From a virus, in IMG/VR virus record IMGVR_UViG_3300031578_003491, positions 1-40,745 of that record: a DNA stretch of 40,745 nucleotides; one strand, 5' to 3'. How positions within the stretch are numbered: the stretch's first letter is position 1; each line of letters starts with the position of its first letter. The position numbers and the translations under genes are program-made. Positions 2,758-38,270 of this stretch are shown here, piece after piece. The notes under the pieces are model-generated. The model made no database searches and had not been told where the DNA came from. It worked only from the letters and a program-made list of their open reading frames with translations.

Positions 2758-2776
2758 TTTGAGGGAGGTAGATTGT

Positions 2777-3517
2777 ATGCGCAAATTTGAATTAACAAGT
2801 GATTTTGTCCTAAGTGCTTTCGGTGTCAAATTGTTCAGGATTAAAGCCCTTGTGTCTTTTAAAAATGTTGACGCTGGTGAATTAGGTGGCTATATCGAGA
2901 AGGTAGAAAACTTAGATCAGTATGGTGATGCTTGGGTCTCTGGCAATGCTTGGGTCTCTGGCAATGCTTGTGTCTCTGGCGATGCTCGGGTCTCTGGCAA
3001 TGCTTGGGTCTCTGGCAATGCTTGGGTCTCTGGCGATGCTTGGGTCTATGGCAATGCTCGGGTCTCTGGCGATGCTTGGGTCTATGGCAATGCTCGGGTC
3101 TCTGGCGATGCTCGGGTCTCTGGTAATGCTCGGGTCTATGGCAATGCTTGTGTCTCTGGCAATGCTTGTGTCTCTGGCAATGCTTGTGTCTATGGCAATG
3201 CTTGTGTCAAAAAATCTACTCACCTATTTCAACTCGGCGCACTCGGATCACGAAACGGATTCACTACGTTCTTCCGGGTAAAGACGAATCAAATCCATGT
3301 GTCTTGTGGTTGCTTTCTTGGGAGTATTGATGAATTTGAAAAAGCAGTAGAAAAGACACACGCTGGCACGAAGCATGAGCGAACGTATAAGTTAGCTATC
3401 CAACTTGCAAAAGAGCAAATCGAACTCGACACAGAAGAAAACGAGGACGGTGAAGGCTGTGAATTTGGAGAAGAAAAGAAAGCTGGAATGTCTCACAGCA
3501 GACTGCGGATTAACTAA
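2777..3517 (+). CDS. Left-handed beta-helix (hexapeptide-repeat) phage protein
   Basis: ATG at 2777 is chosen because GAGGGAGG lies just upstream; an in-frame TTG at 2759 has none. The product is 246 aa. Residues 1-50 contain the usual N-terminal element of this family (ELGGYIEK). Residues ~51-144 are 15.5 hexapeptides of the form D/N-A-W/R/C-V-S/Y-G, which should stack into a left-handed beta-helix like bactofilin-type or acyltransferase-type repeats. The C-terminal ~100 residues form a separate domain with an acidic tail. Such proteins are common in phages but their job is unproven; no acyltransferase active-site His is obvious. Confidence 0.8.
   Translation: MRKFELTSDFVLSAFGVKLFRIKALVSFKNVDAGELGGYIEKVENLDQYGDAWVSGNAWVSGNACVSGDARVSGNAWVSGNAWVSGDAWVYGNARVSGDAWVYGNARVSGDARVSGNARVYGNACVSGNACVSGNACVYGNACVKKSTHLFQLGALGSRNGFTTFFRVKTNQIHVSCGCFLGSIDEFEKAVEKTHAGTKHERTYKLAIQLAKEQIELDTEENEDGEGCEFGEEKKAGMSHSRLRIN
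2927..3208 (+). repeat. 18-bp tandem repeat (15.7 copies) coding hexapeptides
   Basis: Units gatgcttgggtctctggc / aatgctcgggtctatggc follow each other without gaps. Variation is concentrated at four positions that switch D/N, W/R/C and S/Y, so the protein keeps its pattern while the DNA drifts little, suggesting recent expansion or homogenisation. All three + frames and one - frame stay open here only because of periodicity. Confidence 0.95.
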
Positions 3518-7431: not shown

Positions 7432-9798
7432 ATGGAAATAACACTAGGATCGCTATTTGATGGGATAGCTGGGTTTCCACTATCGGCTAGTCATTATGGG
7501 ATAGTAACAAAATGGGCAAGCGAAATAGAGTCATTCCCAATCAAGGTATCGCAGAAACACTTTCCCAACATGAAACACCTTGGCGATGTAACGAAGATCA
7601 ATGGTGCAGAAATTGAACCAGTGGACATTATCAGCTTTGGTAGTCCCTGCTTCCCTGCTGGGACACTGGTAATAACCGAGAAAGGATATATGCCAATTGA
7701 GGAAATCAATGTTGGGGATAGAGTTTTAACCCATACGGGTAAATGGCAAAAAGTTCTTAAGGTTGGCAATAAAATAGCGGACACAATCATACTAAAAGGA
7801 TTTGGTCACTATGGGCTAGAGACTACTACTGAGCATCCATTTTATTCAAGCGAAAAAATACGCAAATGGAGAAATGAACCTAGTCGTGGTTGGGATAGTG
7901 AAATGACTAATCCCAAATGGTCGAAAGCACAGCACATGGAGGGCAAGTTTTGGGCAACTCCAATAATAACCGAAATTATAGAAATACCCGATATCAAAAA
8001 AAGTCTAGGCAAGGGCAAAAGAGCGGAAATTCCAGAAATGAACGAACCTTTCTGGTGGTTTATCGGTAGATGGTTAGGTGATGGCTGGACAAGGGATGCC
8101 AAGCGGCTCAATAGGCCAATGGGATGGGGTCAAGTATTTATTTGCAGCTCACATGATGAAGCAGATGGTGTACAAGAAAAAATAGGCCATTTAGGAATTA
8201 TTTGGGCAAGATTTGAAGAACGAACAGTAACGAAATTTAGAACAACTAATCAAGCATTAACAAAATGGATACTTGATAATTTTGGTCAACATGCAGGTGA
8301 AAAGCGACTACCATCATGGATCCTGAGTTTATCCATAAAATACCGCCAATCCTTGTTAGATGGATATATAAGTGCGGATGGGTTTATTAACCAAGATGGA
8401 GCATATTCCGCAACTACCGTAAGCAAAAAACTGGGTCTAGGAATCAGATTAGTGGCTGAATCATTAGGGTTTGCTTCGGCACTGTATTTCTCTAAAACGA
8501 AACCAAAAACTACTATTGAGGGGAGAGTGGTAAATCAAAGGGATTTCTACACAGTTAGGTATGCCACGATCAAAAAACAAACGAGTAGAACCGAGGCATA
8601 CGGAGTTTCTTGGGGCAAGGTTCGCAAGGTTAGTGAAGGTAGAAAGTCAATTCGAGTTTACAACATTGAGGTAGGGGAAGATAACAGTTATGTAGTTGAA
8701 AACATCATTGTTCACAATTGCCAGGACATGAGTGTAGCTGGGAAGAGAGAAGGGCTAGGGGGGGCAAGGTCGGGTCTATTCATGGAAGCGGTACGAATTA
8801 TTAGAGAAATGAGGGAAGCAACTAATGGAGTTTACCCAAGAGTCGCTATTTGGGAAAACGTCCCAGGAGCATTCTCCAGTAATGGAGGTCAAGATTTTAG
8901 GGCAGTCCTTGAAGAGATCACAGAGACCGAAATTTCAATACCTCCAAGTGGTAGGTGGGCGGAGTCTGGAATGGTTAGAGGGGATGGGCGTTCAGTCGCT
9001 TGGAGAGTCCTTGATGCTCAATACTGGGGTGTCCCCCAGCGTAGAAAGAGAATCTTCCTTGTCGCAGATTTTGGAGGACAACGTGCTGGAGAAATACTTT
9101 TTGAGCGAGAAGGCATGTCTGGGCATTCTGAGGAGAGCGGAAAAGCGTGGGAAGAAGTTGCCGCCGGTGTTGGAGATGGCATTAATACAACAAGCCGGAT
9201 TAACTGCACACCCGATGGCATTGCCGGAACCGTCAGTAGTAAATGGGCAAAAGGGACTGGTGGCCCAGCAGGAGACGAGCACTATAACTTAGTTTGTCAG
9301 GAAGAAATAAAGGTCAACTTCGAACAAACATCTGACCGAATCGCAATAAATCCTAAAACTAGCGTAACTCTCAAGGCTTCAGGAGGAGGAGGAGGAGCAA
9401 AGACCGGACTTTACCTTCTTCCTATTGCATTCAATGGCAGACAGGACCCTATTTCTGGACCGATACCTGGAGCATTGGGAGCTAGTTTACCACAAGCTCA
9501 ATGCGTAGCTACCGGATATACAACCTCGCAGTTTGCGAAGTATGTCGAGGGGGTTGGCACTCTAAGGGCTAGTGGTGGTGATTTGGGTGGTGGCAGTGAA
9601 ACACTCGTTGTAAATTACCGAGTACGCCGACTAACACCAACTGAATGCCTACGACTTCAAGGATTCCCTGACAACTGGCTGGACATCGAAGGAGCAAGCG
9701 ATTCTGGCAAGTACAAAGCGACCGGGAATTCGGTAGCGATCCCTTGTGTAGAGTTCATTTTTAGTCAGATTGTGAAAGTTTTAGAAAGAAAGGACTGA
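7432..9798 (+). CDS. dcm: DNA (cytosine-5) methyltransferase interrupted by an intein
   Basis: ATG at 7432 behind AAGGAGG. Exteins total 431 aa and carry C5-methylase motifs I (GSLFDGIAGFPLSA), IV (PCQDMSVAGKREG), VI (ENVPG), VIII (QRRKRIFLVADF) and the C-terminal motifs (RRLTPTECLRLQGFPDNW, TGNSVAIPC). The intein (residues 73-429) splits the catalytic P-C-Q motif, so the enzyme should be inactive until protein splicing restores it. It methylates C5 of cytosine in phage DNA, likely for restriction evasion. The variable region between VIII and IX has Gly-rich patches (GGGGGAKTG). Confidence 0.93.
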   Translation: MEITLGSLFDGIAGFPLSASHYGIVTKWASEIESFPIKVSQKHFPNMKHLGDVTKINGAEIEPVDIISFGSPCFPAGTLVITEKGYMPIEEINVGDRVLTHTGKWQKVLKVGNKIADTIILKGFGHYGLETTTEHPFYSSEKIRKWRNEPSRGWDSEMTNPKWSKAQHMEGKFWATPIITEIIEIPDIKKSLGKGKRAEIPEMNEPFWWFIGRWLGDGWTRDAKRLNRPMGWGQVFICSSHDEADGVQEKIGHLGIIWARFEERTVTKFRTTNQALTKWILDNFGQHAGEKRLPSWILSLSIKYRQSLLDGYISADGFINQDGAYSATTVSKKLGLGIRLVAESLGFASALYFSKTKPKTTIEGRVVNQRDFYTVRYATIKKQTSRTEAYGVSWGKVRKVSEGRKSIRVYNIEVGEDNSYVVENIIVHNCQDMSVAGKREGLGGARSGLFMEAVRIIREMREATNGVYPRVAIWENVPGAFSSNGGQDFRAVLEEITETEISIPPSGRWAESGMVRGDGRSVAWRVLDAQYWGVPQRRKRIFLVADFGGQRAGEILFEREGMSGHSEESGKAWEEVAAGVGDGINTTSRINCTPDGIAGTVSSKWAKGTGGPAGDEHYNLVCQEEIKVNFEQTSDRIAINPKTSVTLKASGGGGGAKTGLYLLPIAFNGRQDPISGPIPGALGASLPQAQCVATGYTTSQFAKYVEGVGTLRASGGDLGGGSETLVVNYRVRRLTPTECLRLQGFPDNWLDIEGASDSGKYKATGNSVAIPCVEFIFSQIVKVLERKD
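7648..8718 (+). mobile_element. LAGLIDADG intein inside the cytosine methylase
   Basis: 357 aa in frame. Block A begins at Cys1 (CFPAGTLVITEKGYMPIEE), block B has TTTEHPF with the conserved T-x-x-H, and blocks F/G read VYNIEVGEDNSYVV...HN followed by Cys+1. Two dodecapeptide motifs, FIGRWLGDGW (~residues 205-214 of the ORF) and LLDGYISADG (~residues 300-310), indicate a homing endonuclease domain. All splicing residues (Cys1, block B His, terminal His-Asn, Cys+1) are present, so splicing competence is expected. Cys+1 is also the methylase's catalytic Cys. Confidence 0.93.
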
Positions 9799-28675: not shown

Positions 28676-28702
28676 AGGACTGTAAATTACAGTCCTTTTG
28701 TT
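28676..28702 (+). terminator. Intrinsic terminator after the 28075 gene
   Basis: AGGACTGTAA (28676-28685) pairs with TTACAGTCCT (28687-28696), 10 bp, minimal loop, followed by TTTTGTT. Good rho-independent terminator 13 nt after the stop codon. Confidence 0.85.
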
Positions 28703-28760: not shown

Positions 28761-28766
28761 TATAAT
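28761..28766 (+). promoter_or_regulatory. Perfect -10 box (TATAAT) just before array 1
   Basis: TATAAT with TATA before it sits immediately upstream of the GGYNN array, so transcription would start near 28772, inside the first units. A TTGTTA at 28734-28739 is 21 bp away, longer than usual, so the -35 is uncertain. Confidence 0.5.
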
Positions 28767-28767
28767 C

Positions 28768-28994
28768 ACGGCACGGTCCGGCAAGGTGGGATCTGGCAAG
28801 GTGCGGCATTGCTAGACATGGTTTAAGGCATAGCGTGGCGAGGCCTGGATTGGTGAGGCAAAACAAGGTGTGGTTTATGGCGAGGTGGTGCAAGGCCTGG
28901 TATGACAAAGCAAAGCAAGTCGAGGCTCTGGGTGTGGCCGGACTCGGCTCGGTTCGGTGAGGCATGGCATGACTTGGGTGGCAACTGCCACAAA
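28768..28994 (+). repeat. Degenerate 5-nt GGYNN array 1
   Basis: About 220 nt in which GG followed by C or T recurs every 5 nt (ggcac, ggtcc, ggcaa, ggtgg, ggcaa, ggtgc, ggcat...), with occasional 6-nt steps that shift phase (e.g. ggttta, ctctg/ggtgt). Positions 4-5 vary. It has no stable ORF on the + strand and ends with a small hairpin TGGCA-ac-TGCCA followed by CAAA. It forms the 5' leader of the following genes. Confidence 0.85.
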
Positions 28995-29008
28995 AAGGGG
29001 TGATGTAG

Positions 29009-29182
29009 TTGCAAGAAAAAATTGATAATCCAGTTAAGGCAATAGTGCTGGATGAAAAAATTCTATGTGGAAAATGTGGACACACAATAGCCTTAAAGAA
29101 AGAGGAAAATACAATACGCCTTAAATGTAAACATAGGGACAATGGTAAAAATTGTAATGTTATAAACGAAATCAAAATTTAA
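29009..29182 (+). CDS. Com-like zinc-ribbon protein (57 aa)
   Basis: TTG 29009 behind AAAAGGGG, directly after array 1. ILCGKCGHTIALKKEE, then RLKCKHRDNGKNCNVINEI gives C-x2-C ... C-x-H ... C, close to the Com family (CGKC...IKCPRC...NEI) from phage Mu, a zinc protein that binds mRNA and controls translation. Only 57 aa. Binding of the adjacent GGYNN arrays is a testable inference. Confidence 0.6.
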   Translation: MQEKIDNPVKAIVLDEKILCGKCGHTIALKKEENTIRLKCKHRDNGKNCNVINEIKI

Positions 29183-29203
29183 ATTTGAAAGAGGTTTTAG
29201 ACC

Positions 29204-29830
29204 ATGGCAAACAAGAAAAATGTTATTGAAATTGAGAATCTTACAATCACAAAACCAAGAATATATCTAGTTACCATCCAAGGCATGGATAGTTTATTGT
29301 TCAACAAAATGCCGGATTTAGGTAAACCTAAAACAGAAGATGCAGATCAATCCAAAATAGACAGGACGGAATTAGAAAGATTAACATGGAGAGAAAAGAG
29401 TTATTATGATGAATCTGGTATGGTTTACATGCCGGGTGAGAATATTCATGAATGCCTAAAAGAAGGTTCTCAGTATTGGGGGCAAAAGATACAGGGCGAA
29501 GGAAATAAGACATATACGGATGTTGTTAAATCTGCCGTTATATGCGAAAGCATGAATTTTGGAATTCACAAGGATTCGGAAGAAATAATTCCATTTGGAA
29601 AAATGGTAAATGGGAATCCATCAAAGGGTAAAAAATCGGGGTCAAAAGTTTACAAGATCAGACCTCTATTAAGGCCATGGGGTGGAGAATTTAAGATGCA
29701 TGTATTTGACGCACGATTATTACCAGCCATCCTGAAAACAATTATTTCATATGCCGGAGCCTTCAGAGGGTTGGGAGATTGGAGACCAATCTACGGAAGA
29801 TTCGAGCTTACTGATATTCGGGAGGGCTAG
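29204..29830 (+). CDS. Conserved-looking phage protein of unknown function (208 aa)
   Basis: ATG 29204 behind GAAAGAGG. Opens with strands KPRIYLVTIQGMDSLLFNKM and closes with a Gly/Arg-rich stretch AFRGLGDWRPIYGRFELTDI, the kind of Gly-rich loop found in RRM-like/RAMP folds; this resemblance is weak. A mid-region has Gly/Lys loops (GNPSKGKKSGSKVYK). No catalytic motif is seen. It is flanked by GGYNN arrays and coupled to 29834 (3-nt gap). Could be the array-binding protein. Confidence 0.7.
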   Translation: MANKKNVIEIENLTITKPRIYLVTIQGMDSLLFNKMPDLGKPKTEDADQSKIDRTELERLTWREKSYYDESGMVYMPGENIHECLKEGSQYWGQKIQGEGNKTYTDVVKSAVICESMNFGIHKDSEEIIPFGKMVNGNPSKGKKSGSKVYKIRPLLRPWGGEFKMHVFDARLLPAILKTIISYAGAFRGLGDWRPIYGRFELTDIREG

Positions 29831-29833
29831 TTT

Positions 29834-30277
29834 ATGGATACAAGGGAAATTAGCCAACTCATAGAAAGAGTTTCCGAAAATGTAACCAAGATGGGCGAGG
29901 GGACATTAATCACTCATGAATGGTTAGTAGAATCATTAAATGTTGATCGTAGGAAACAAAAAGAAAAATATTATGGGCTTGTCGGTAAGTTGAAGAGAAA
30001 TCTTGAAAAACACTATAATATATTCTTGACTACCGAACACAAACAAGGTTACAGGTATACGATTCATGGAGATGAGCATAAATCTTGTGAGGGTCAATGC
30101 AATAAGGGCATAAAGGGATTTCTTAAAGGAGTACGAAGATTCAACTTTATAGATTTAGACAAAATAAAGGACCCAGTAAAGAAAACAAAAACCTTGGAAT
30201 CTTCTCAAAGGTGTGCAAGTCTGGCTGGATTGGTTAAATTGGGAATGCCGAAAGTACAACAGAAAATAAGCCAATGA
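29834..30277 (+). CDS. Basic DNA/RNA-binding-like protein (147 aa)
   Basis: ATG 29834 follows GGGAGGG, nearly abutting the previous stop. Residues ~24-75 (LITHEWLVESLNVDRRKQKE, YYGLVGKLKRNLEKHY, TTEHKQGYRYTIHG) resemble a winged helix. The C-terminal half is Lys-rich with a Cys pair (CEGQC). No enzyme motif. Probably a regulator or nucleic-acid binder of the array unit. Confidence 0.65.
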   Translation: MDTREISQLIERVSENVTKMGEGTLITHEWLVESLNVDRRKQKEKYYGLVGKLKRNLEKHYNIFLTTEHKQGYRYTIHGDEHKSCEGQCNKGIKGFLKGVRRFNFIDLDKIKDPVKKTKTLESSQRCASLAGLVKLGMPKVQQKISQ

Positions 30278-30286
30278 TTTTGATTT

Positions 30287-30472
30287 AGGCTTGGATTATG
30301 GCCAGGTCCGGCCAGGTACGGCCCGGTTGGGCAAGGTTGAGATTGGTTTGGCACGGCTCAAGGTGCGACTGGGTCAGGTTAGGCATGGTCCGGTGGGGCA
30401 AGGTGGGGCTCAGGGTTAGGCATGGTGCGACTCGGCGTGGCCAGCCAAGGCAAGGGCGGTTTATGCCACAAA
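30287..30472 (+). repeat. Degenerate 5-nt GGYNN array 2
   Basis: About 175 nt of the same pattern as array 1 (ggcca, ggtcc, ggcca, ggtac, ggccc, ggttg, ggcaa...), with phase slips at ggttga and ggctca. Its end, GGC-ggtttat-GCC plus CACAAA, matches the hairpin plus TGCCACAAA that closes array 1. Non-coding. Located in the 3' region of the unit, just before a terminator. Confidence 0.85.
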
Positions 30473-30495
30473 CTTAATAATTGAAACTTGTTATA

Positions 30496-30544
30496 AACGA
30501 GTCATTTGCACTGTAATGGTGTAGATGGCTCGTTTTTGTTTTGT
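30496..30544 (+). terminator. Intrinsic terminator closing the array unit
   Basis: AACGAGTCAT (30496-30505) pairs with ATGGCTCGTT (30525-30534), 10 bp with one G-T pair, followed by TTTGTTTTG. Good terminator. Confidence 0.85.
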
Positions 30545-30609
30545 AAAGAGATTTCAAAGTGCGATTTATTAGTTGCCCATTCGGCACTATAAAAAGGAGA
30601 TATAACAAA

Positions 30610-31476
30610 ATGAAGGTGTGTGCAATCGTCCAAGCTCGTGAAGGCTCTACAAGGCTCCCAAATAAGGCCACAATAGATATTGGAGGCAAACCAGCCCTAG
30701 AATGTGTCATAGATCGTCTGAGAGCTGCTAAAACGCTAAACAACATCATCGTAGCCACGACCACAAATGAAAAAGACGATGTAATTATCGACCTATGCGA
30801 AAAATTAGGTTGTTCTTATTTTCGGGGTAGCGAAGAGGATGTGCTGACTAGGGTTTTGGAGGCTGCAAGGAAGTTTGAAGTGGATGTGATTGTCGAGGTG
30901 ACCGCTGACTGCCCATTAATTTTTCATGAACATATAGATAGTCTGGTCAAACAACATCTTGCCAATAATTGCGATATGACGAGTAATATTATCGAGAGAA
31001 GTTTTCCAAGGGGTTTTGACATTCGTGTCTTTAATACGGAAGCACTGGAACGAGTTAACAGGGAAGTTGACAACGCAATTGACCGGCAGCACGTAAGTAC
31101 TGCTATGTATTTGAATCCACGTTTTAAACAAAATTACAAAGTCCAAAATTGGTTTGCACCGCCTGAACAGAATCGACCCAATATTGATGTGACTTTAGAT
31201 ACGCCGGCAGACCTAGAATTAATCCGCTTCATCTATGGATTTGAAAGCCAAGGTTATAATCTAAAATTAAGCTGTGAGGAAGTCATTTCCATTATTGATA
31301 TTTATCCGGATATGTATGCTGATGTAACGAAAGTGGTTAGAAAAGATTATTTTGAAGAGTTAAAACAGGCTTATGAGCTAAAGGAGCACGAAAAACAAAA
31401 TGAAAAAGCATCGACCACTCATAATAGGCTGCGGCAAACAGGGCATAGGGGAAGGCCAAGGAAAGACAAGCCATAA
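30610..31476 (+). CDS. SpsF-like CMP-sugar cytidylyltransferase
   Basis: ATG 30610 follows AAAAGGAG; the frame open from 30559 has no ribosome site. VQAREGSTRLPNKATIDIGG is the nucleotide-binding signature of CMP-KDO/CMP-NulO/SpsF synthetases, with TADCPLI and the D-x-D-like DVTLDTP later. It should charge a nonulosonic or related acidic sugar with CMP. The last ~28 residues overlap the next gene (77 nt) and are low in complexity, with an RGRPRKDKP tail. 288 aa. Confidence 0.85.
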   Translation: MKVCAIVQAREGSTRLPNKATIDIGGKPALECVIDRLRAAKTLNNIIVATTTNEKDDVIIDLCEKLGCSYFRGSEEDVLTRVLEAARKFEVDVIVEVTADCPLIFHEHIDSLVKQHLANNCDMTSNIIERSFPRGFDIRVFNTEALERVNREVDNAIDRQHVSTAMYLNPRFKQNYKVQNWFAPPEQNRPNIDVTLDTPADLELIRFIYGFESQGYNLKLSCEEVISIIDIYPDMYADVTKVVRKDYFEELKQAYELKEHEKQNEKASTTHNRLRQTGHRGRPRKDKP

Positions 31477-32221
31477 GATTATTAATTTTGCCCATGCACT
31501 GACTGAGAATCCTAGATTTGATGAAATAGTATTTTATGATAAAAATTATTCAAAGGCTAATAAAGCTGCACTTGATTGGAATTGTTATTGGACAAAGGGA
31601 ATTGAACAACCAATTGATAATCCCAATGAATATGATGTTGTTATCATAACTACTCCTGATAATACACATTTTCAAATATTAAAGGCATTAACATTAGTTT
31701 CATGGAAACCTAAATTAGTAATATGCGAAAAGCCAATTTGCGAAGATTTACAGCAAGCCCGGGAAATAGTTGAGCTTTATAAGGCTAAGGGAATACCTTT
31801 ATGCGTGAACTATACACGTCAATTCTTGCCTTATTATGAGGATTTGAAGCGAAGATATGAATCAGGCGAATTTGGCAGAATAGTTTCTGCCAATGTTGTA
31901 TTTAATCGCGGATGGCTACACTCTGCTACTCATGCCATTTCATTCTTGGAATGGTTTTTTGATGGACAATATAACGGTAAAATAATGGAATGCGAAACAG
32001 ATTACCGCATTTGGCAGATGGATTTGTATTTTGAGAAATACCACTGGCGAGAGGAAAGAATTGGAGAACAACCAGTTTGGCCGTACTACGATAAATCTCA
32101 TTGGTATGTGATTGACAATGCTTTTCAGTTTTTAGAGGGAAAAGAAGTGTTGAAATGTACCGGAGAAGATGCATTGAAGGCATTGGAAATATGTTATAAG
32201 CTGATGGAGGTTGTAAAATAA
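31400..32221 (+). CDS. Gfo/Idh/MocA-family sugar oxidoreductase
   Basis: ATG 31400 inside the previous gene with AAAGGAG upstream. Rossmann start RPLIIGCGKQGIGEG, then VVIITTPDNTHF and the diagnostic VICEKPI (E-K-P). This family oxidises or reduces sugars with NAD(P), and members sit in legionaminic/pseudaminic and other sugar clusters. 273 aa is slightly short for the family (typically 320-390). Probably alters a sugar precursor. Confidence 0.85.
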   Translation: MKKHRPLIIGCGKQGIGEGQGKTSHKIINFAHALTENPRFDEIVFYDKNYSKANKAALDWNCYWTKGIEQPIDNPNEYDVVIITTPDNTHFQILKALTLVSWKPKLVICEKPICEDLQQAREIVELYKAKGIPLCVNYTRQFLPYYEDLKRRYESGEFGRIVSANVVFNRGWLHSATHAISFLEWFFDGQYNGKIMECETDYRIWQMDLYFEKYHWREERIGEQPVWPYYDKSHWYVIDNAFQFLEGKEVLKCTGEDALKALEICYKLMEVVK

Positions 32222-32449
32222 ATGTCAATACGAACTTTAGACAAAAATACTTTTTGTATTCTGCATAATGATAAATTAATGCGAATGGGGAGAATGGAAG
32301 ATAATAAACCATTCAGTTTTAATACAGAAAGCGAAGCCGAAGAATTCATACTCGACTATAGGTCAACATTGATAGAGCAAAGAATTTCCTCAAAACGTTG
32401 GGATTATTATATATTTAAAACGGATACGGATTTAGGAATAATCCAATAG
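32222..32449 (+). CDS. Small hypothetical protein (75 aa)
   Basis: ATG 32222 follows directly on the oxidoreductase stop, with GGAGG at spacing upstream. Mixed charged sequence (ESEAEEFILDYRSTLIEQ) and strand-helix pattern; no Cys pairs. No family recognised. Last gene before the terminator at 32489. Confidence 0.6.
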   Translation: MSIRTLDKNTFCILHNDKLMRMGRMEDNKPFSFNTESEAEEFILDYRSTLIEQRISSKRWDYYIFKTDTDLGIIQ

Positions 32450-32488
32450 GCATAAGGGTGTAAATAAATAGGTTGTTCGACGGGATGT

Positions 32489-32522
32489 AAAAAGCGACTA
32501 CACCTTAACTGTGGTCGCTTTT
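32489..32522. terminator. Bidirectional-looking terminator
   Basis: AAAAGCGACTACA (32490-32502) pairs with TGTGGTCGCTTTT (32510-32522), 13 bp with one G-T pair, loop of 7. A-run and T-run flank it, so it can work on both strands. A ribosome site for the next gene follows 17 nt later. Confidence 0.85.
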
Positions 32523-32552
32523 CCTATGCGCAAATAAAGGAGCGTAAAAAAT

Positions 32553-32825
32553 ATGATTAGGCAAGAGGGCCAAGTGTTTGAACGAATTAAATCCCCATCA
32601 ATAGGTACTGTGGTTAATAATCATGTAAGCAAGAATGAATATTATCCCGTATATATCGTTGAAGGGTTTTATCTTGATCCAGTCTATCAAAGATTATCGA
32701 ATGCTTGGAAATGGAGAAAAATTAATGAAGACGGAACACTTGGAGAAAAGGAATCAGATTACGGTCTTTTTTCCAAAGTTGATAGAGAATATGAAGTTGA
32801 AATTAAAATAAAGTGGAGTGAATAG
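32553..32825 (+). CDS. Small hypothetical protein (90 aa)
   Basis: ATG 32553 behind AAAGGAGCG. Strand-rich (YYPVYIVEGFYLDP, REYEVEIKIKW) with a KINEDGTLGE turn. No known domain; it may resemble small phage Ig-like or OB-like proteins, but this is only a guess. The stop overlaps near the next start (ATG 32827). Confidence 0.65.
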   Translation: MIRQEGQVFERIKSPSIGTVVNNHVSKNEYYPVYIVEGFYLDPVYQRLSNAWKWRKINEDGTLGEKESDYGLFSKVDREYEVEIKIKWSE

Positions 32826-32826
32826 A

Positions 32827-33996
32827 ATGAGCATTGGTCAAGAAGAAAAAGAAGCAGTTTTAAGAGTAATAAGAAGTGGGAATCTTAGTTCATATCAGGG
32901 GAATGCATCAAGTGCTTTTTATGGTGGACCAGAGATAAAAGCATTAGAATCAGAATGGTGTGCATACTTTGGCGTTAAACATGCCATAGCTTGCAATTCG
33001 GCTACTTCTGGATTGTGGTTAGCTTGTGCGGCTATTGGATTGCAGCAAGATTTTACTGATATCAATTGGAATATTGAAGAAAATGGGATTGATAGATATA
33101 AACCAGATGAAGTAATCGTGACACCGTATTCCATGACCTGCTCTGCTTCTATACCGCTTCATTTTGGCTGTAAGCCTGTCTTTGCCGATATAGAGAAGGA
33201 TTACTACTGCTTAGACCCTAAGTCAGTCGAGAAGGCTATCACGGAGCACACAAGAGCTATTATAGCAGTGGATTTATTTGGACAGCCTTATGATGCATTA
33301 GAAATTAATAAATTAGCTCGAAAGTATAGCAAAATTTATGGTCATAAGATATATGTCATTGAAGATGCAGCTCAGGCAATAGGAGCAACTTATATAGGTA
33401 ATTACGCCGGCACCCTTGGAGATATTGGAGTATTTAGTCTCAATCGACATAAGCATATTCAGTGTGGTGAAGGTGGAATCGTCATTACTGATGATGATGA
33501 ATTGTCATTGAAGATTAGATTAGCAATGAATCATTCTGAGGCAGTTGTTAATGATATGTTGAACACGGACAAGTCTTTAGTAAATGAAGAAAGTTTAACA
33601 TCAGTAACAAGTATTGTCGGAATGATCGGTATGAATATGAGAATGACTGAATTATCCGCAGCAGTCGCAAGAGAACAACTTAAAAAGCTGACTGGCATAC
33701 TCAAAAATGTCAGAGAACATGCTAAGTATTTTCCGGTTAAAGTTAGGCCGGGCTGTGAACATGCTTATTATAGATATGCTTTTGAGAATAATTATCCTAC
33801 ATGGGATATACAGCTTTTTGAAATGTTAAGCAAAAATAATATAGCTCAACTTTTTAAGGCTAAGCAGCACTACATTACCCCACTTTATAAAATGCCATTA
33901 TTCCAATCATTAGGCTATCCGGATAATCTTTGTCCAGTTTGTGAAGAAGTTGAGGGGAACATAGTTTTAGCTTGGATGAAGGGGAGTGATATGTGA
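32827..33996 (+). CDS. DegT/DnrJ-family PLP sugar aminotransferase
   Basis: ATG 32827 with GGAGTG 8 nt before it; an in-frame GTG at 32818 is less likely. Motifs of PseC/LegC-type aminotransferases: CNSATSGLWLAC, TPYSMTCSA, VIEDAAQAIGA, and GVFSLNRHKHIQCGEGG with the PLP-binding Lys in HKH. It converts a 4-keto sugar nucleotide to the 4-amino form, the step after the dehydratase at 38424. 389 aa is normal. The stop overlaps the terminase gene start. Confidence 0.92.
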   Translation: MSIGQEEKEAVLRVIRSGNLSSYQGNASSAFYGGPEIKALESEWCAYFGVKHAIACNSATSGLWLACAAIGLQQDFTDINWNIEENGIDRYKPDEVIVTPYSMTCSASIPLHFGCKPVFADIEKDYYCLDPKSVEKAITEHTRAIIAVDLFGQPYDALEINKLARKYSKIYGHKIYVIEDAAQAIGATYIGNYAGTLGDIGVFSLNRHKHIQCGEGGIVITDDDELSLKIRLAMNHSEAVVNDMLNTDKSLVNEESLTSVTSIVGMIGMNMRMTELSAAVAREQLKKLTGILKNVREHAKYFPVKVRPGCEHAYYRYAFENNYPTWDIQLFEMLSKNNIAQLFKAKQHYITPLYKMPLFQSLGYPDNLCPVCEEVEGNIVLAWMKGSDM

Positions 33997-34457
33997 TGCC
34001 TTTTCCTCATTTGAATGATGATGGTAGGCCTAGAAAATTTCAGACACCTGAAGATTTACAATTGGTAGTGAATAACTATTTTGCTTACTGCGATTCTCTT
34101 AACCCTGTAAATGATGAGGGAAGGGTTACTATCAATAAGCCTTATACGGTCACTGGGTTATGCGATTACATTGGGTTGCATAAGGATAATTGGCTAGAAT
34201 ACGGGAAACGAGATGGCTATACCGATATTGTCAAGAATGCCAAGCAGAAAGTGGAAACATTTACTGTCGAGATGGCCTCTATCAATAAGACTAATCCAAT
34301 CATGGCCATATTTAATTTAAAGAACAATTTTGGGTATTCTGATAAGATTGACGTTACAACCAGTAATCAGCCCGAACAATTGAACGCTACTGATATTAGG
34401 AAGTTATTGAATGATAAGGGAAGAGAGAGATTATTGGAATTAAATGGAAATTTATAG
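33996..34457 (+). CDS. terS: Terminase small subunit
   Basis: ATG 33996 (GTG 33993 alternative) behind GGGGAG, overlapping the aminotransferase stop. Sequence PFPHLNDDGRPRKFQTPED, VTGLCDYIGLHKDNWLEYG, KQKVETFTVEMASIN and AIFNLKNNFGYSDK is the P22/phage small-terminase pattern: an N-terminal DNA-recognition helix-turn-helix and a helical C-part. It selects pac/cos DNA for packaging. The large subunit does not follow. 153 aa. Confidence 0.85.
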   Translation: MPFPHLNDDGRPRKFQTPEDLQLVVNNYFAYCDSLNPVNDEGRVTINKPYTVTGLCDYIGLHKDNWLEYGKRDGYTDIVKNAKQKVETFTVEMASINKTNPIMAIFNLKNNFGYSDKIDVTTSNQPEQLNATDIRKLLNDKGRERLLELNGNL

Positions 34458-34859
34458 AGCAAGGATATGAGTTTATATTATTTGGTAAAGAAAATGCTTT
34501 TACGACCCAAACAAAAAAGGACCATGCAACATCTTGCATAATTATTCATTCAACATTCATTATAACTAGTACATTATTGGTTAAAATGTCCACCGGTCAT
34601 GGACTTTATTGCTAATAATACCAATGCATAAAAATCTTACAACACACGAACCCTGAACACCGCATGGCACTAAGGCTAAGCGATACAACATAATGACATT
34701 GTGAATAATCCTACTTTACGTAATGTTAGTTATGGGACCCAATCAAGCATGGACTATGTATGGTTATGCAGGCGGGGGGTGTGTTTGTCCTGTTTGTTTG
34801 GCAAGGTGGCGAATTAAGCCGCATAAAAATATTCAGTAGAACAAAAGGGGTTATTAACA
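34458..34859. other. About 400 nt without a convincing gene after terS
   Basis: No ORF with a ribosome site is seen. An 8-codon frame (ATG 34444-34470, overlapping the terS end) begins MEIYRARI and could be the relic of a large terminase start. A hairpin GTCCA-ccggtca-TGGAC with TTTATT (34588-34610) might end transcription. Packaging sites often lie here, but none can be named. Confidence 0.5.
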
Positions 34860-34949
34860 ATGCATTCTTACAAGGTAAACTTTATTTGTGGCGGTATTAC
34901 TTATGAAATAAGAGGTAATAACAAAAGGAAGCGATACTATGCATATTAA
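34860..34949 (+). CDS. Possible 29-aa peptide
   Basis: ATG 34860 behind AAAAGGGG. Short basic product (MHSYKVNFICGGITYEIRG start). It overlaps the next start by a few bases. Weak support: ribosome site only. Confidence 0.35.
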   Translation: MHSYKVNFICGGITYEIRGNNKRKRYYAY

Positions 34950-35085
34950 TTGGAATATTCTAATCATCAAAATTATTGTAGCCATAAGTACATTAGCTAT
35001 TTTGGTAATATGGGTAGGCATAGAAAAGCTACTTGAAAGGCGAGATCTAAAAGAGTTAGAACGAGAATTAAAAAGGAGATTATAG
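34939..35085 (+). CDS. Small membrane protein with coiled-coil tail (48 aa)
   Basis: ATG 34939 behind AAAGGAAG. Residues ~5-27 (WNILIIKIIVAISTLAILVI) are a clear transmembrane segment; the tail KLLERRDLKELERELKRR is a charged helix. The shape resembles small holin-like or phage membrane factors, but no function is assigned. Its 3' end carries the GGAG site of the next gene. Confidence 0.55.
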   Translation: MHINWNILIIKIIVAISTLAILVIWVGIEKLLERRDLKELERELKRRL

Positions 35086-35087
35086 TA

Positions 35088-35393
35088 ATGGAAAAAGTAA
35101 AAAGAAATGCATTAGTTGTATTTGAAGGTCATGGAATAAAACATACTAGAATAACAGTGTTTATACCTGAGAAGTATTGCACCTTTAAACAAGAAATGCC
35201 AAACATGTTTTCTAATGGTAGTTCATATTTTTATGATTTTCCATTAATCGATATGGAAAAAATAATGAATGACGGTTTTGACAATGCAGTTGAATTTAAG
35301 TTAGGCGATGACTGCTATGGGAATTCATTACAAGTATTATCCAGTAAGGATAAATCAATTCATATTACGGTAAGTAAGCTTAACGATAACTGA
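35088..35393 (+). CDS. Hypothetical protein (101 aa)
   Basis: ATG 35088 behind AAAAAGGAG. Strand-helix mixture with an aromatic centre (SSYFYDFPLIDMEKIM). No known domain. It forms a small cluster with the membrane protein upstream. Nothing in the sequence suggests a job. Confidence 0.6.
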   Translation: MEKVKRNALVVFEGHGIKHTRITVFIPEKYCTFKQEMPNMFSNGSSYFYDFPLIDMEKIMNDGFDNAVEFKLGDDCYGNSLQVLSSKDKSIHITVSKLNDN

Positions 35394-35427
35394 CATCTTT
35401 AAAAATTTTTTTTAAAAACAAAAAGAC

Positions 35428-35527
35428 CATGTAAAGATGGATATATATACTTCCTTTGTATCTTTGCATGAATTAATGAAAAAATATTGCTGTAGCCTTA
35501 CTACCACAAGCGATTGGGGCTATTTTT
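35428..35527 (+). terminator. Two hairpins between 35393 and 35598 genes
   Basis: First: CATGTAAAGAT (35428-35438) against ATCTTTGCATG (35460-35470), 10 of 11 pairs, no T-run. Second: TAGCC (35493-35497) against GGCTA (35518-35522) followed by TTTTTATATA, a weak terminator. Together they probably separate the two genes' transcripts. Confidence 0.45.
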
Positions 35528-35530
35528 ATA

Positions 35531-35582
35531 TAGTTGGTTTTTTATCGTTTTTTCAATCTCAAATGAGTGGAAAAACCAACTA
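35531..35582 (+). promoter_or_regulatory. 12-bp perfect inverted repeat ahead of ribosome site
   Basis: TAGTTGGTTTTT (35531-35542) and AAAAACCAACTA (35571-35582) form a perfect stem around 28 nt. It ends 1 nt before the AGGAAG ribosome site of the 35598 gene, so it could act as an attenuator or an operator. Confidence 0.6.
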
Positions 35583-35597
35583 GGAAGTTGGTGCAAT

Positions 35598-36137
35598 ATG
35601 AGTGATAAAATATTAAAAAAAACCCAATATATTGATAAGGATACAGGTGTTATTCAAAAAGAAAATATTCAATTCATTGCCGCTGCTTTCCATGAAGAAA
35701 AAGGTTATCTGTTTTGGGCTAGGAAAAACTTTGCCAAATCTTTTGTAGATGTGGATTTCCCTAAAGCTATGACAATGAAGGAACGCGGGCAAATGGCAAC
35801 ACTTGCAAAAAAGATGTGGTCAACAACTAATATGTTGGGATATCGCGGTAATGGTGGAATAAAATCTTATGATGATGAACAAATAGGGTATATTATTGGA
35901 CTGAAATCATACCAGGCTAAGAGCTTCATGAGAAAGATGATTAAAGTTGGAATGATAGCTAAGGTAACCGTTATGACCGAAGGGGAAAGGGTTACTCAAT
36001 ACTATATAAACCCAATCTATTTTTTTGGCTCAAATAGAATACCTCTTAATCTTTACCTGATATTCAAGACCCAACTTGACAAGGTTTTACCTAGTTGGGT
36101 TTTAGAAAAATATGCGCTCGCTAAAAACGGAAACTAA
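35598..36137 (+). CDS. Winged-helix-like protein, RepL-like (179 aa)
   Basis: ATG 35598 after AGGAAG, 15 nt past a perfect inverted repeat; the frame open to 35514 would run through the repeat. The middle (MTMKERGQMATLAKKMWSTT, GYIIGLKSYQAKSFMRKMI, GMIAKVTVMTEGERVTQY) looks like a winged helix resembling the RepL/replication-maintenance fold of Firmicutes plasmids and phages; not certain. It may bind the repeat just upstream. Confidence 0.5.
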   Translation: MSDKILKKTQYIDKDTGVIQKENIQFIAAAFHEEKGYLFWARKNFAKSFVDVDFPKAMTMKERGQMATLAKKMWSTTNMLGYRGNGGIKSYDDEQIGYIIGLKSYQAKSFMRKMIKVGMIAKVTVMTEGERVTQYYINPIYFFGSNRIPLNLYLIFKTQLDKVLPSWVLEKYALAKNGN

Positions 36138-36145
36138 ATTAATCT

Positions 36146-36208
36146 TAGCACAGGGATGGTTATTACCAATGCGAATTCGCTCCTCGCTTTCCTTGTGCTA
36201 TTTATATT
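36146..36208 (+). terminator. Branched terminator-like structure
   Basis: Outer stem TAGCACAGGGA (36146-36156) with TCCTTGTGCTA (36190-36200), 11 bp with one G-T pair, followed by TTTATATT. Inside lie two more hairpins: TGGT-tatt-ACCA (36157-36168) and the palindrome GCGAATTCGC (36171-36180). Together they can form a three-way junction before the next ribosome site. Confidence 0.6.
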
Positions 36209-36233
36209 GAAGGAGCGAAGAAGGAGTAATAAA

Positions 36234-36815
36234 ATGAAATTAAAAGCCTTATCCTTAAAAGATTTAGAGCAAGTCCGGCAATGGAGAAATTTACGACTTG
36301 AAATGTTAAGGACTCCATTTCCTTTGACCGAAGAACAGCAAGCAAAGTTTTATTCTGAGGTTATTTGTAATCGCCAATCAAATGCAAGGTATTGGGGAAT
36401 ATGGCCAAGTAAAAAAAGAACAACATATCCGGATACTTTTGAATACTGCCAATCAGTATTAATTGGCATGGCTGGACTGGAAAATATCCAATGGGAAAAT
36501 AGACTTTGTGAAATAAGCTTACTGTTAACGCCGGGAGCCATGGACGAATATGGAACTAAATCATTGAGCCTATTGTTACATGAAGGCTTTATGAATATGA
36601 ATCTAGAGAACATCTTCACAGAAGTTTACGAATGCAATCCTCATTTGAATTTTTGGATAAATATGGCCGGAGAATACAATACTTGTTTTGTTCGCCTGCC
36701 AAACCGTAAATATTATAACGGCGAATACTGGCCGAGTTATTACATCAATTTTAATAAGGAGGATTATCTAGAGCATGAAAATACTATTCTTGAGCCCACA
36801 CAAACACTTGATTGA
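36234..36815 (+). CDS. GNAT acetyltransferase, PseH-like (193 aa)
   Basis: ATG 36234 behind AAGGAG; the upstream open frame from 36156 is rejected as it crosses the hairpin. KLKALSLKDLEQVRQWRNL at the start is the hallmark of RimI/PseH-like GNAT enzymes (W-R-N). CEISLLLTPGAMDEYGTKSL and LLLHEGFMNMNLENI hold the acetyl-CoA loop and following helix. PseH/LegH acetylates the 4-amino group of the sugar nucleotide. 41-nt overlap with the formyltransferase. Confidence 0.82.
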   Translation: MKLKALSLKDLEQVRQWRNLRLEMLRTPFPLTEEQQAKFYSEVICNRQSNARYWGIWPSKKRTTYPDTFEYCQSVLIGMAGLENIQWENRLCEISLLLTPGAMDEYGTKSLSLLLHEGFMNMNLENIFTEVYECNPHLNFWINMAGEYNTCFVRLPNRKYYNGEYWPSYYINFNKEDYLEHENTILEPTQTLD

Positions 36816-37329
36816 GTTTCTAGAATCGAATGGTGATGAGGTTGTCAATTCATTTGAACTGGTAACAGAGGAATTACTAGAGGACATTGACTTCATCATC
36901 AGCTATGCTTATCGGCGCAAGATTGAGAAGGAGATTCTGGATAGATTTAAGGGTAGAGCAATCAATCTGCACATATCCTATTTACCTTATAATCGGGGTG
37001 CAGACCCCAACTTATGGAGCTTTCTTGAGGACACACCAAAGGGAGTAACAATCCATTACCTAGATGGCAGTATTGACACTGGGGATATTATCGCCCAGGA
37101 GAAGATCACATATGACATTGAAACAGATACCTTGCGAACCACTTATAGGCGTCTATCAGAAACGATAGAGGCTCTTTTTTATCGATTGTGGCCGGACATC
37201 AGGGTTGGCGTGATCGATTCGATTCCTCAACTGACTTATCACAGGGTGGCAAATAAGGAACGATATGCACATCTGTTCCCAAGAGGCTGGGACACTCCTA
37301 TTAAAGATGTTATCGGTAAAGGAAAATAA
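36775..37329 (+). CDS. Sugar N-formyltransferase-like protein (184 aa)
   Basis: ATG 36775 with AAGGAGG upstream, inside the GNAT gene. AINLHISYLPYNRGADPN contains the catalytic Asn-x-His of 10-formyl-THF transferases, and GSIDTGDIIAQEK supplies the conserved Asp. It lacks most of the C-terminal domain of tRNA formyltransferases. Sugar N-formyltransferases of similar size formylate 4-amino sugars. It probably offers an alternative to acetylation of the amino sugar. Confidence 0.82.
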   Translation: MKILFLSPHKHLIEFLESNGDEVVNSFELVTEELLEDIDFIISYAYRRKIEKEILDRFKGRAINLHISYLPYNRGADPNLWSFLEDTPKGVTIHYLDGSIDTGDIIAQEKITYDIETDTLRTTYRRLSETIEALFYRLWPDIRVGVIDSIPQLTYHRVANKERYAHLFPRGWDTPIKDVIGKGK

Positions 37330-37348
37330 ATTAAGGGAGCGATAAAAC

Positions 37349-37606
37349 ATGGAGAAGATGGTTAAATTTTTCGGTACTGCAATCTTAGGTATGGGAGTAA
37401 TTTTTATTATACTTCCATTAGATACAATATTTGGGTATATCGCAGGTTTTATTATTAAAATCATGTTTGGCGGTGTAATTACGCAAGGTCTTAACTTGTT
37501 ATTCAATACGCAAAGATTTTCTCCAAATGATATTCCATATGTATGTTCGGCATTAGCATTATTAAGTGCTTATCTAAAGACAACAGTTACTAATAAAATA
37601 AATTAA
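37349..37606 (+). CDS. Small membrane protein (85 aa)
   Basis: ATG 37349 behind AGGGAGCG. Two hydrophobic segments, ~residues 7-32 (FFGTAILGMGVIFIILPL) and ~37-52 (IIKIMFGGVITQGLNLL), and a third weaker one near the end. Might anchor the sugar enzymes or be a holin-like protein; no evidence decides. Confidence 0.65.
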   Translation: MEKMVKFFGTAILGMGVIFIILPLDTIFGYIAGFIIKIMFGGVITQGLNLLFNTQRFSPNDIPYVCSALALLSAYLKTTVTNKIN

Positions 37607-37619
37607 GGGAGCGATAAGC

Positions 37620-38270
37620 ATGGCAAAAATTATACTTGATTTTGGCAGCGGAAACACCTGCCACAACGATTGGGATTATACCAAACGAATGATTGACGAA
37701 CTTAAAGCAGTGGATACTGGCAAGCATGAGGTCATAATTAAGTGGCAACTTTTTAAAGAGGCTGGGGAAAACATCCCACTTGATAAATCGGTATTCGATT
37801 TAGCTTATGTTTATGCAAAAGAATTAGGTTATCAAACAACTTCCAGTGTTTTCGATAAAGAAAGCCTGGATTTTTTATTGCAGTTTGATGTGCCATTTGT
37901 AAAGATTGCCAACAATAGGGAATTGGATTGGCTGATTAGTGAGATACCGCGCAAGGTTCCTGTTTATGTCAGTTGCGGGAGTGCTGAACAGATTGGGAAC
38001 TGGCACGAGTCCGTTAGATGGGGAATCATTAAACCCTTGCTGTGCGTTTCTAATTATCCTGCTAATATGGAAGATTACGAAGAAATAAAAAAATTTGGCT
38101 TATATGTTATATATGATAAATATGGCATTTCTGACCACACAACAAACTTTGGGCTGTGGTATCGTTATCAACCTGAAATCATTGAGTGGCATTTTGGACT
38201 CTCGGATTCCACTGGACTTGATGCCGGGCCTTTTATGAGAACTCCGGCTATATTGAAAGAGGTATTGTAA
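37620..38270 (+). CDS. Short NeuB-like nonulosonate synthase (216 aa)
   Basis: ATG 37620 behind AGGGAGCG. Signature of the NeuB/PseI/SpsE TIM barrel: SVFDKESLDFLLQFDVPFVK, KIANNRELDWL and SDHTTNFGLWYR, with HFGLSDSTGLDAGPFM near the end. NeuB enzymes condense phosphoenolpyruvate with an amino hexose. It is 216 aa, about two thirds of the usual length, and lacks the C-terminal SAF (antifreeze-like) domain that shapes the active site, so activity or a partner subunit is uncertain. Confidence 0.8.
   Translation: MAKIILDFGSGNTCHNDWDYTKRMIDELKAVDTGKHEVIIKWQLFKEAGENIPLDKSVFDLAYVYAKELGYQTTSSVFDKESLDFLLQFDVPFVKIANNRELDWLISEIPRKVPVYVSCGSAEQIGNWHESVRWGIIKPLLCVSNYPANMEDYEEIKKFGLYVIYDKYGISDHTTNFGLWYRYQPEIIEWHFGLSDSTGLDAGPFMRTPAILKEVL

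Follow-up and report, generated by a model that had tools for sequence, protein, structure and literature searches.

Why a viral genome should enclose three small genes between two arrays in which GG plus a pyrimidine recurs every 5 nt is the question raised by positions 28,761 to 30,544 of the DNA considered here. The window, that is, the whole stretch of 40,745 nt that was analysed, is an IMG/VR virus record and carries genes for RecT, an exonuclease, SSB and a terminase small subunit. Judging from sequence comparison, the unit is very probably a divergent locus of the VIPR (Viral Interference Programmable Repeat) kind, described only very recently in a 2026 preprint (bioRxiv 2026.04.26.720920, PMC13142463), and would be a new member of that kind. 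The case made here from the loci themselves consists of the homology and RAMP fold of one encoded protein, the arrays, their strand-locked association with its gene and the syntax of the guides. An initial sequence-only reading had assigned no known function to the unit, a statement that is outdated because the preprint describes VIPR. The anatomy which that reading gave, a compact self-contained unit with an array at either end, a perfect TATAAT directly before the first array and a strong terminator after the second, agrees with ours. Array 1 begins 4 nt after the TATAAT, ahead of which no good match to a -35 hexamer was found. In order, the unit consists of the TATAAT, array 1, a zinc-ribbon gene, a 208-aa gene, a 147-aa gene, array 2 and the terminator:

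28676-28696, + strand: terminator-like hairpin of the upstream gene, which would insulate the unit.
28761-28766, + strand: TATAAT -10 box, from sequence; the transcript is predicted to begin near the first unit of array 1.
28770-28977, + strand: array 1, by segmentation four guide blocks of 11, 10, 10 and 9 GGYNN units starting at 28770, 28827, 28879 and 28931, with the 7-nt joints GGTTTAA, GGTTTAT and GGCTCTG.
28978-28994, + strand: tail 1, GTGGCAACTGCCACAAA, with a 5-bp hairpin.
29009-29182, + strand: 57-aa zinc-ribbon protein with a TTG start, accessory or incidental.
29204-29830, + strand: vipr, predicted 208-aa RAMP (Cas7-like) guide-binding protein, phrog_4652.
29834-30277, + strand: vap1-like gene for a 147-aa winged-helix-like protein, distant phrog_5926.
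30288-30294, + strand: two stray units just before array 2.
30300-30455, + strand: array 2, by segmentation three guide blocks of 12, 10 and 8 units starting at 30300, 30362 and 30414, with the joints GGCTCAA and GGCTCAG.
30456-30472, + strand: tail 2, GCGGTTTATGCCACAAA.
30495-30535, + strand: strong intrinsic terminator, 19-bp stem plus T run, folding z = -5.7.

The 208-aa protein is, as predicted from homology, a Vipr, that is, a Cas7-like RAMP protein. Its family was aligned from the window protein plus 49 relatives taken from loci that the array alone had retrieved. All 50 match phrog_4652, of unknown function, and their profile matches PDB 36pp, 'SUSP1 Vipr protein', with an E value of 8e-43 (profile positions 15-200). 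By itself, the window protein matches a Felixounavirus homolog of the SUSP1 clade (about 27% identity, E about 1e-8), and its identity to the SUSP1 Vipr is about 25-27%. In a Foldseek comparison with the PDB, its AF2 model (pLDDT 86) best matches the Cas7-like RAMP subunits of Cmr, Csm and type VII systems, together with Cas7-11, at probability 1.0 and E values between 1e-7 and 1e-5. One viral match bears the name 'Cas system-associated RAMP superfamily protein'. A Vipr is expected to be an early-branching RAMP with a G-loop, and a glycine-rich C-terminal motif, GxGDxRP...GRF, is conserved. Nothing over the cut-offs was found for this protein in PADLOC, Pfam or NCBIfam, and as a single query against viral contigs it retrieves no related loci because it is too diverged. 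In the tree it lies apart from the SUSP1 clade and groups, with support 0.91, with the proteins of L008, L018 and L067. The Vipr closest to that of the window, at about 31% identity, is encoded in an Aenigmatarchaeota MAG (L122), in which an array lies directly 3' of the gene.

The link between array and vipr can be read in both directions. A search of viral contigs by the GGYNN x8 pattern alone, without protein information, yielded at least 119 loci. Among the 119 listed loci, an iterative profile search from the 208-aa protein places a homolog beside the array in 59, and a six-frame search independent of ORF picking finds Vipr in 87, with 170 arrays on the vipr coding strand versus 7 on the opposite one; some of the listed loci lacking Vipr end close to the array. 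Conversely, searching 84,980 genomes by a Vipr protein pattern only gave 32 homologs, from archaea, CPR bacteria, Chloroflexi, Actinomycetota, Pseudomonadota and others, and at 27 of these 32 loci a GGYNN array lies no further than 2.5 kb from vipr, in every case on the sense strand. The link is reciprocal and strand-locked and the association overwhelming; independently and from sequence, the survey strongly supports a pairing of GGYNN arrays with Vipr that extends over viruses, bacteria and archaea. The three gene families which the sequence-only reading had tied to such arrays fare unequally as neighbours: the 208-aa family accompanies the arrays at the frequency just given and a 147-aa-like gene recurs, but the zinc ribbon does not. 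Arrays with long flanks in which the profile finds no Vipr also occur (L012, L026, L034, L053, L057, L061, L083, L102); they may be solitary guides or belong to undetected Vipr types. Very long single-phase arrays were seen as well, of about 142 units in L022 (6301-7012, + strand) and about 174 units in L070 (reverse strand, about 8040-8944), far over the 9-16 units reported per vrRNA.

The 5-nt period is real in both arrays of the window. At lags 5, 10 and 15, the autocorrelation of GG in each array exceeds that of dinucleotide shuffles by 4.2-5.8 s.d. (about 5.5 s.d. at lag 5), and the lag-5 counts of 17 and 21 are unmatched in 2000 shuffles, whose maximum is 16 in either case. Elsewhere in the window, the best stretches hold 5 GGY (+ strand) and 7 GGY (- strand) per 100-nt phase versus 11 in an array. 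The description of GG plus pyrimidine every 5 nt is thus borne out as to period, but not as a single phase, since the arrays fall into blocks of 8-12 units set off by +2-nt shifts. All five joints are 7-nt units of the form GGYTY plus 2 nt, each shifting the phase by +2. Random placement would put YTY units at all joints with P = 4e-5, a value that is optimistic because the motif was noticed after looking. Over the GGYNN units in the window the first G is kept in 90%, the second in 86% and the pyrimidine in 97%, so that several GGY motifs are degenerate, and block 7, with only 8 units, is one below the 9-16 reported for a vrRNA.

About seven guides are packed in this fashion without individual tails, and there is one common tail per array, placed after the last block only. 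Both tails end in TGCCACAAA; the common 3' end noted earlier therefore stands for this sequence, whereas the hairpin noted with it is present in tail 1 and weaker in tail 2. Tail 2 contains GGTTTAT, as do internal joints. A search for sibling loci by the tail pattern gave four matches, none with arrays, and Rfam has no match within the window. According to the preprint, an invariant structured 3' tail follows each vrRNA in VIPR (PMC13142463). The Felixounavirus locus likewise has its own tail for each guide, whereas in the window three to four guides follow one another directly, offset by +2 shifts, before a single tail. Staggered arrays, in which blocks lack tails and the frame changes at each joint as it does here, are already mentioned among VIPR systems (PMC13142463), and we therefore do not claim the 7-nt joint as new. 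Common staggered arrays among the listed loci have a 4-nt GGYN joint and a separate Vipr clade, whereas the window joint is 7 nt long, GGYTY-NN. Many blocks of about 10 units with the GGYN joint were seen in L013, L015, L043, L064, L076, L106, L107, L116 and others, and in the first tree all GGYN-joint loci among those listed fall into one Vipr clade. Other loci have conserved joints of their own, GGACTTTAG in L005, GGCGTTCA in L025, GGAGR in L047 and GGTACAT/GGTACGC in L049/L072. Such locus-own joints between guide blocks suggest lineage-specific punctuation.

It is possible, if somewhat doubtful, that the locus represents a separate VIPR subtype whose guides follow a syntax of their own, in which one RNA packs several guides, the 7-nt GGYTY-NN closes each block as punctuation replacing tails and the zinc-ribbon protein acts as a further accessory factor. 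If the punctuation reading were true, the promoter-proximal and the terminator-proximal array would together deliver seven guides. The array grammar of VIPR, a discovery only months old, is barely charted, and the locus makes it testable how guide boundaries are marked when guides lack tails of their own.

How such a unit might act can be proposed from that one preprint, the source of the VIPR mechanism. As reported there, the RAMP protein of VIPR binds vrRNAs made up of 9-16 GGY/NN units, recognises dsDNA in the form NNxNNx with a 1-nt skip and represses transcription; the systems are mostly phage-carried, come with a vap accessory gene and fall into seven types (PMC13142463). By analogy, RNP formation, the skip rule and repression would apply at this locus. 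The unit would be transcribed from just past 28761 to about 30535, and Vipr would polymerise along each GGYNN block with a subunit on every 5-nt unit, holding the GGY and leaving the NN exposed. The exposed NN pairs of the seven or so guides in the two arrays would bind dsDNA read as NNxNNxNN, skipping one base per unit, usually the codon wobble, and the bound complex would block transcription of a gene in a competing phage, prophage or satellite. Repression is probably enhanced by the 147-aa winged-helix-like protein, as it is by Vap1 in SUSP1. Two guesses of the sequence-only reading fit VIPR as the preprint describes it (PMC13142463): that RNA and protein act together, with a subunit for each 5-nt unit, and that selection acts on the spacing and not on the exact letters. 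The informative part, the variable NN letters, escaped that reading, as did the +2 phase shifts.

The composition of the guides offers modest support for a wobble-skip rule. Over 4939 units from 137 loci, with dinucleotide preference averaged over both strands, the NN letters correlate with codon positions 1-2 at r 0.85 (the remaining frames give 0.76 and 0.62), as is predicted by a skip rule in which the wobble base is skipped. Read as NNx codons, guides give plausible peptides: EGKL(I/M)KKKES for S3 and (I/M)V(D/E)L(F/L)(D/E)KKV(F/L) for S2. No convincing target emerged for the five of seven guides (S1, S2, S3, S5, S6) scanned as exact 18-base codes against viral contigs, the matches numbering 0, 1, 4, 1 and 0, respectively, which chance could yield. 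The S5 match, 18/18 over the 9 units searched and 20/24 over the full guide, lies antisense to an ORF and was rejected as chance. S2 matches at 19/20 in frame within a tail-like gene (L155), and the four S3 matches include 20/20 at a start codon in a pair of contigs that are nearly the same (L156, L159); since composition predicts about 6 (S2, 18-base) and about 0.25 (S3, full 20-base) chance matches on an assumed collection size, neither is claimed as a target. Matches with a 1-nt skip and at most one mismatch among the fetched loci, considered as possible cross-targeting, were all discarded, as they come from low-complexity false arrays in L037.

The lack of a target among five guides, together with the loss of about 10-14% of G positions and the sharing of one tail per array by the seven blocks, might also be explained if the locus were VIPR-derived with guides that no longer target DNA, Vipr coating RNA for some other end such as packaging or a decoy while the arrays decay. 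Such decay is very unlikely, however, given that 97% of units retain the pyrimidine, none of the three reading frames is interrupted, the +2 shift and the GGYTY form persist at all five joints, and the terminator and -10 box are retained.

As a whole, the unit looks like a functional VIPR locus of a diverged lineage. The 147-aa gene appears to be a remote homolog of the SUSP1-clade accessory gene vap1, because its product matches phrog_5926 at E 3e-4 (versus 1e-75 for the second gene of the SUSP1-like phage tootiki) and the family profile at E 4e-4 before inclusion. Pairwise BLAST with the second gene of tootiki is not significant (E 0.31). The predicted order of the model, helix-strand-helix-helix-strand-strand, is that of a winged helix, with weak Foldseek PDB matches (E >0.1). 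The 57-aa protein weakly matches the recombinase zinc ribbon PF13408 (E 1.7e-4, under the gathering score), with minor zinc-finger matches in Pfam and an integrase match in PHROGs. The earlier analogy with the Com protein of phage Mu is unsupported, since the zinc ribbon is absent from most other array loci and hence not conserved, and neither Pfam nor PHROGs holds a Com family match for the protein. The idea that the arrays serve as 5' and 3' regulatory RNA acting on the transcript that carries them, for example as two-layer G-quadruplexes, with the zinc ribbon as a Com-type autoregulator, is very unlikely. In its favour, a GG at each fifth nucleotide might allow two-layer quadruplexes to stack, one array lies at the extreme 5' end and the other ahead of the terminator, and the zinc ribbon is encoded next to array 1. 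Against it, arrays elsewhere track vipr instead, lie on one or both sides of genes and are sometimes dozens of units long (listed loci), their variable NN has a codon-like composition, the arrays of SUSP1, which are homologous, are recovered together with Vipr as its guides (PMC13142463), and quadruplexes are not needed to explain the arrays.

Compared with known systems, the VIPR locus of the window most resembles the SUSP1/Felixounavirus clade, with which it shares a RAMP-fold Vipr, GGY/NN vrRNAs flanking the genes and carriage by a phage. In that clade vap1 directly follows vipr, as the vap1-like gene does here, and the array-vipr-vap-array layout is common to the window, tootiki and SUSP1, the last as described in the preprint, where its system is characterised as VIPR type II (PMC13142463). 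Unlike that clade, the window has the extra zinc-ribbon gene. The Cas7-like subunits of type III/VII CRISPR (Csm3, Cmr, Cas7-11) resemble Vipr in their RAMP fold and in devoting one subunit to each short guide segment, but their guides are contiguous, whereas those of the window have a period of 5 and a fixed GGY, and identity is about 8-16%. A class 1 repeat-spacer array and cas genes are absent from the unit, and none of its three genes has a PADLOC match. VIPR has been proposed to predate CRISPR.

The only nucleotide similarity found for the phage is confined to a short stretch of about 140 nt inside the methyltransferase ORF. A DNA cytosine methyltransferase gene at 7432-9798 is apparently split by an intein-like insert, as judged from split matches. 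Right after the VIPR unit, 30559-38270 holds a sugar-nucleotide cluster (cytidylyltransferase, aminotransferase, formyltransferase-like, epimerase), and the ORF at 2759-3517 contains many tandem 6-aa repeats of the GNAWVS/GDARVY type, with other frames also open.
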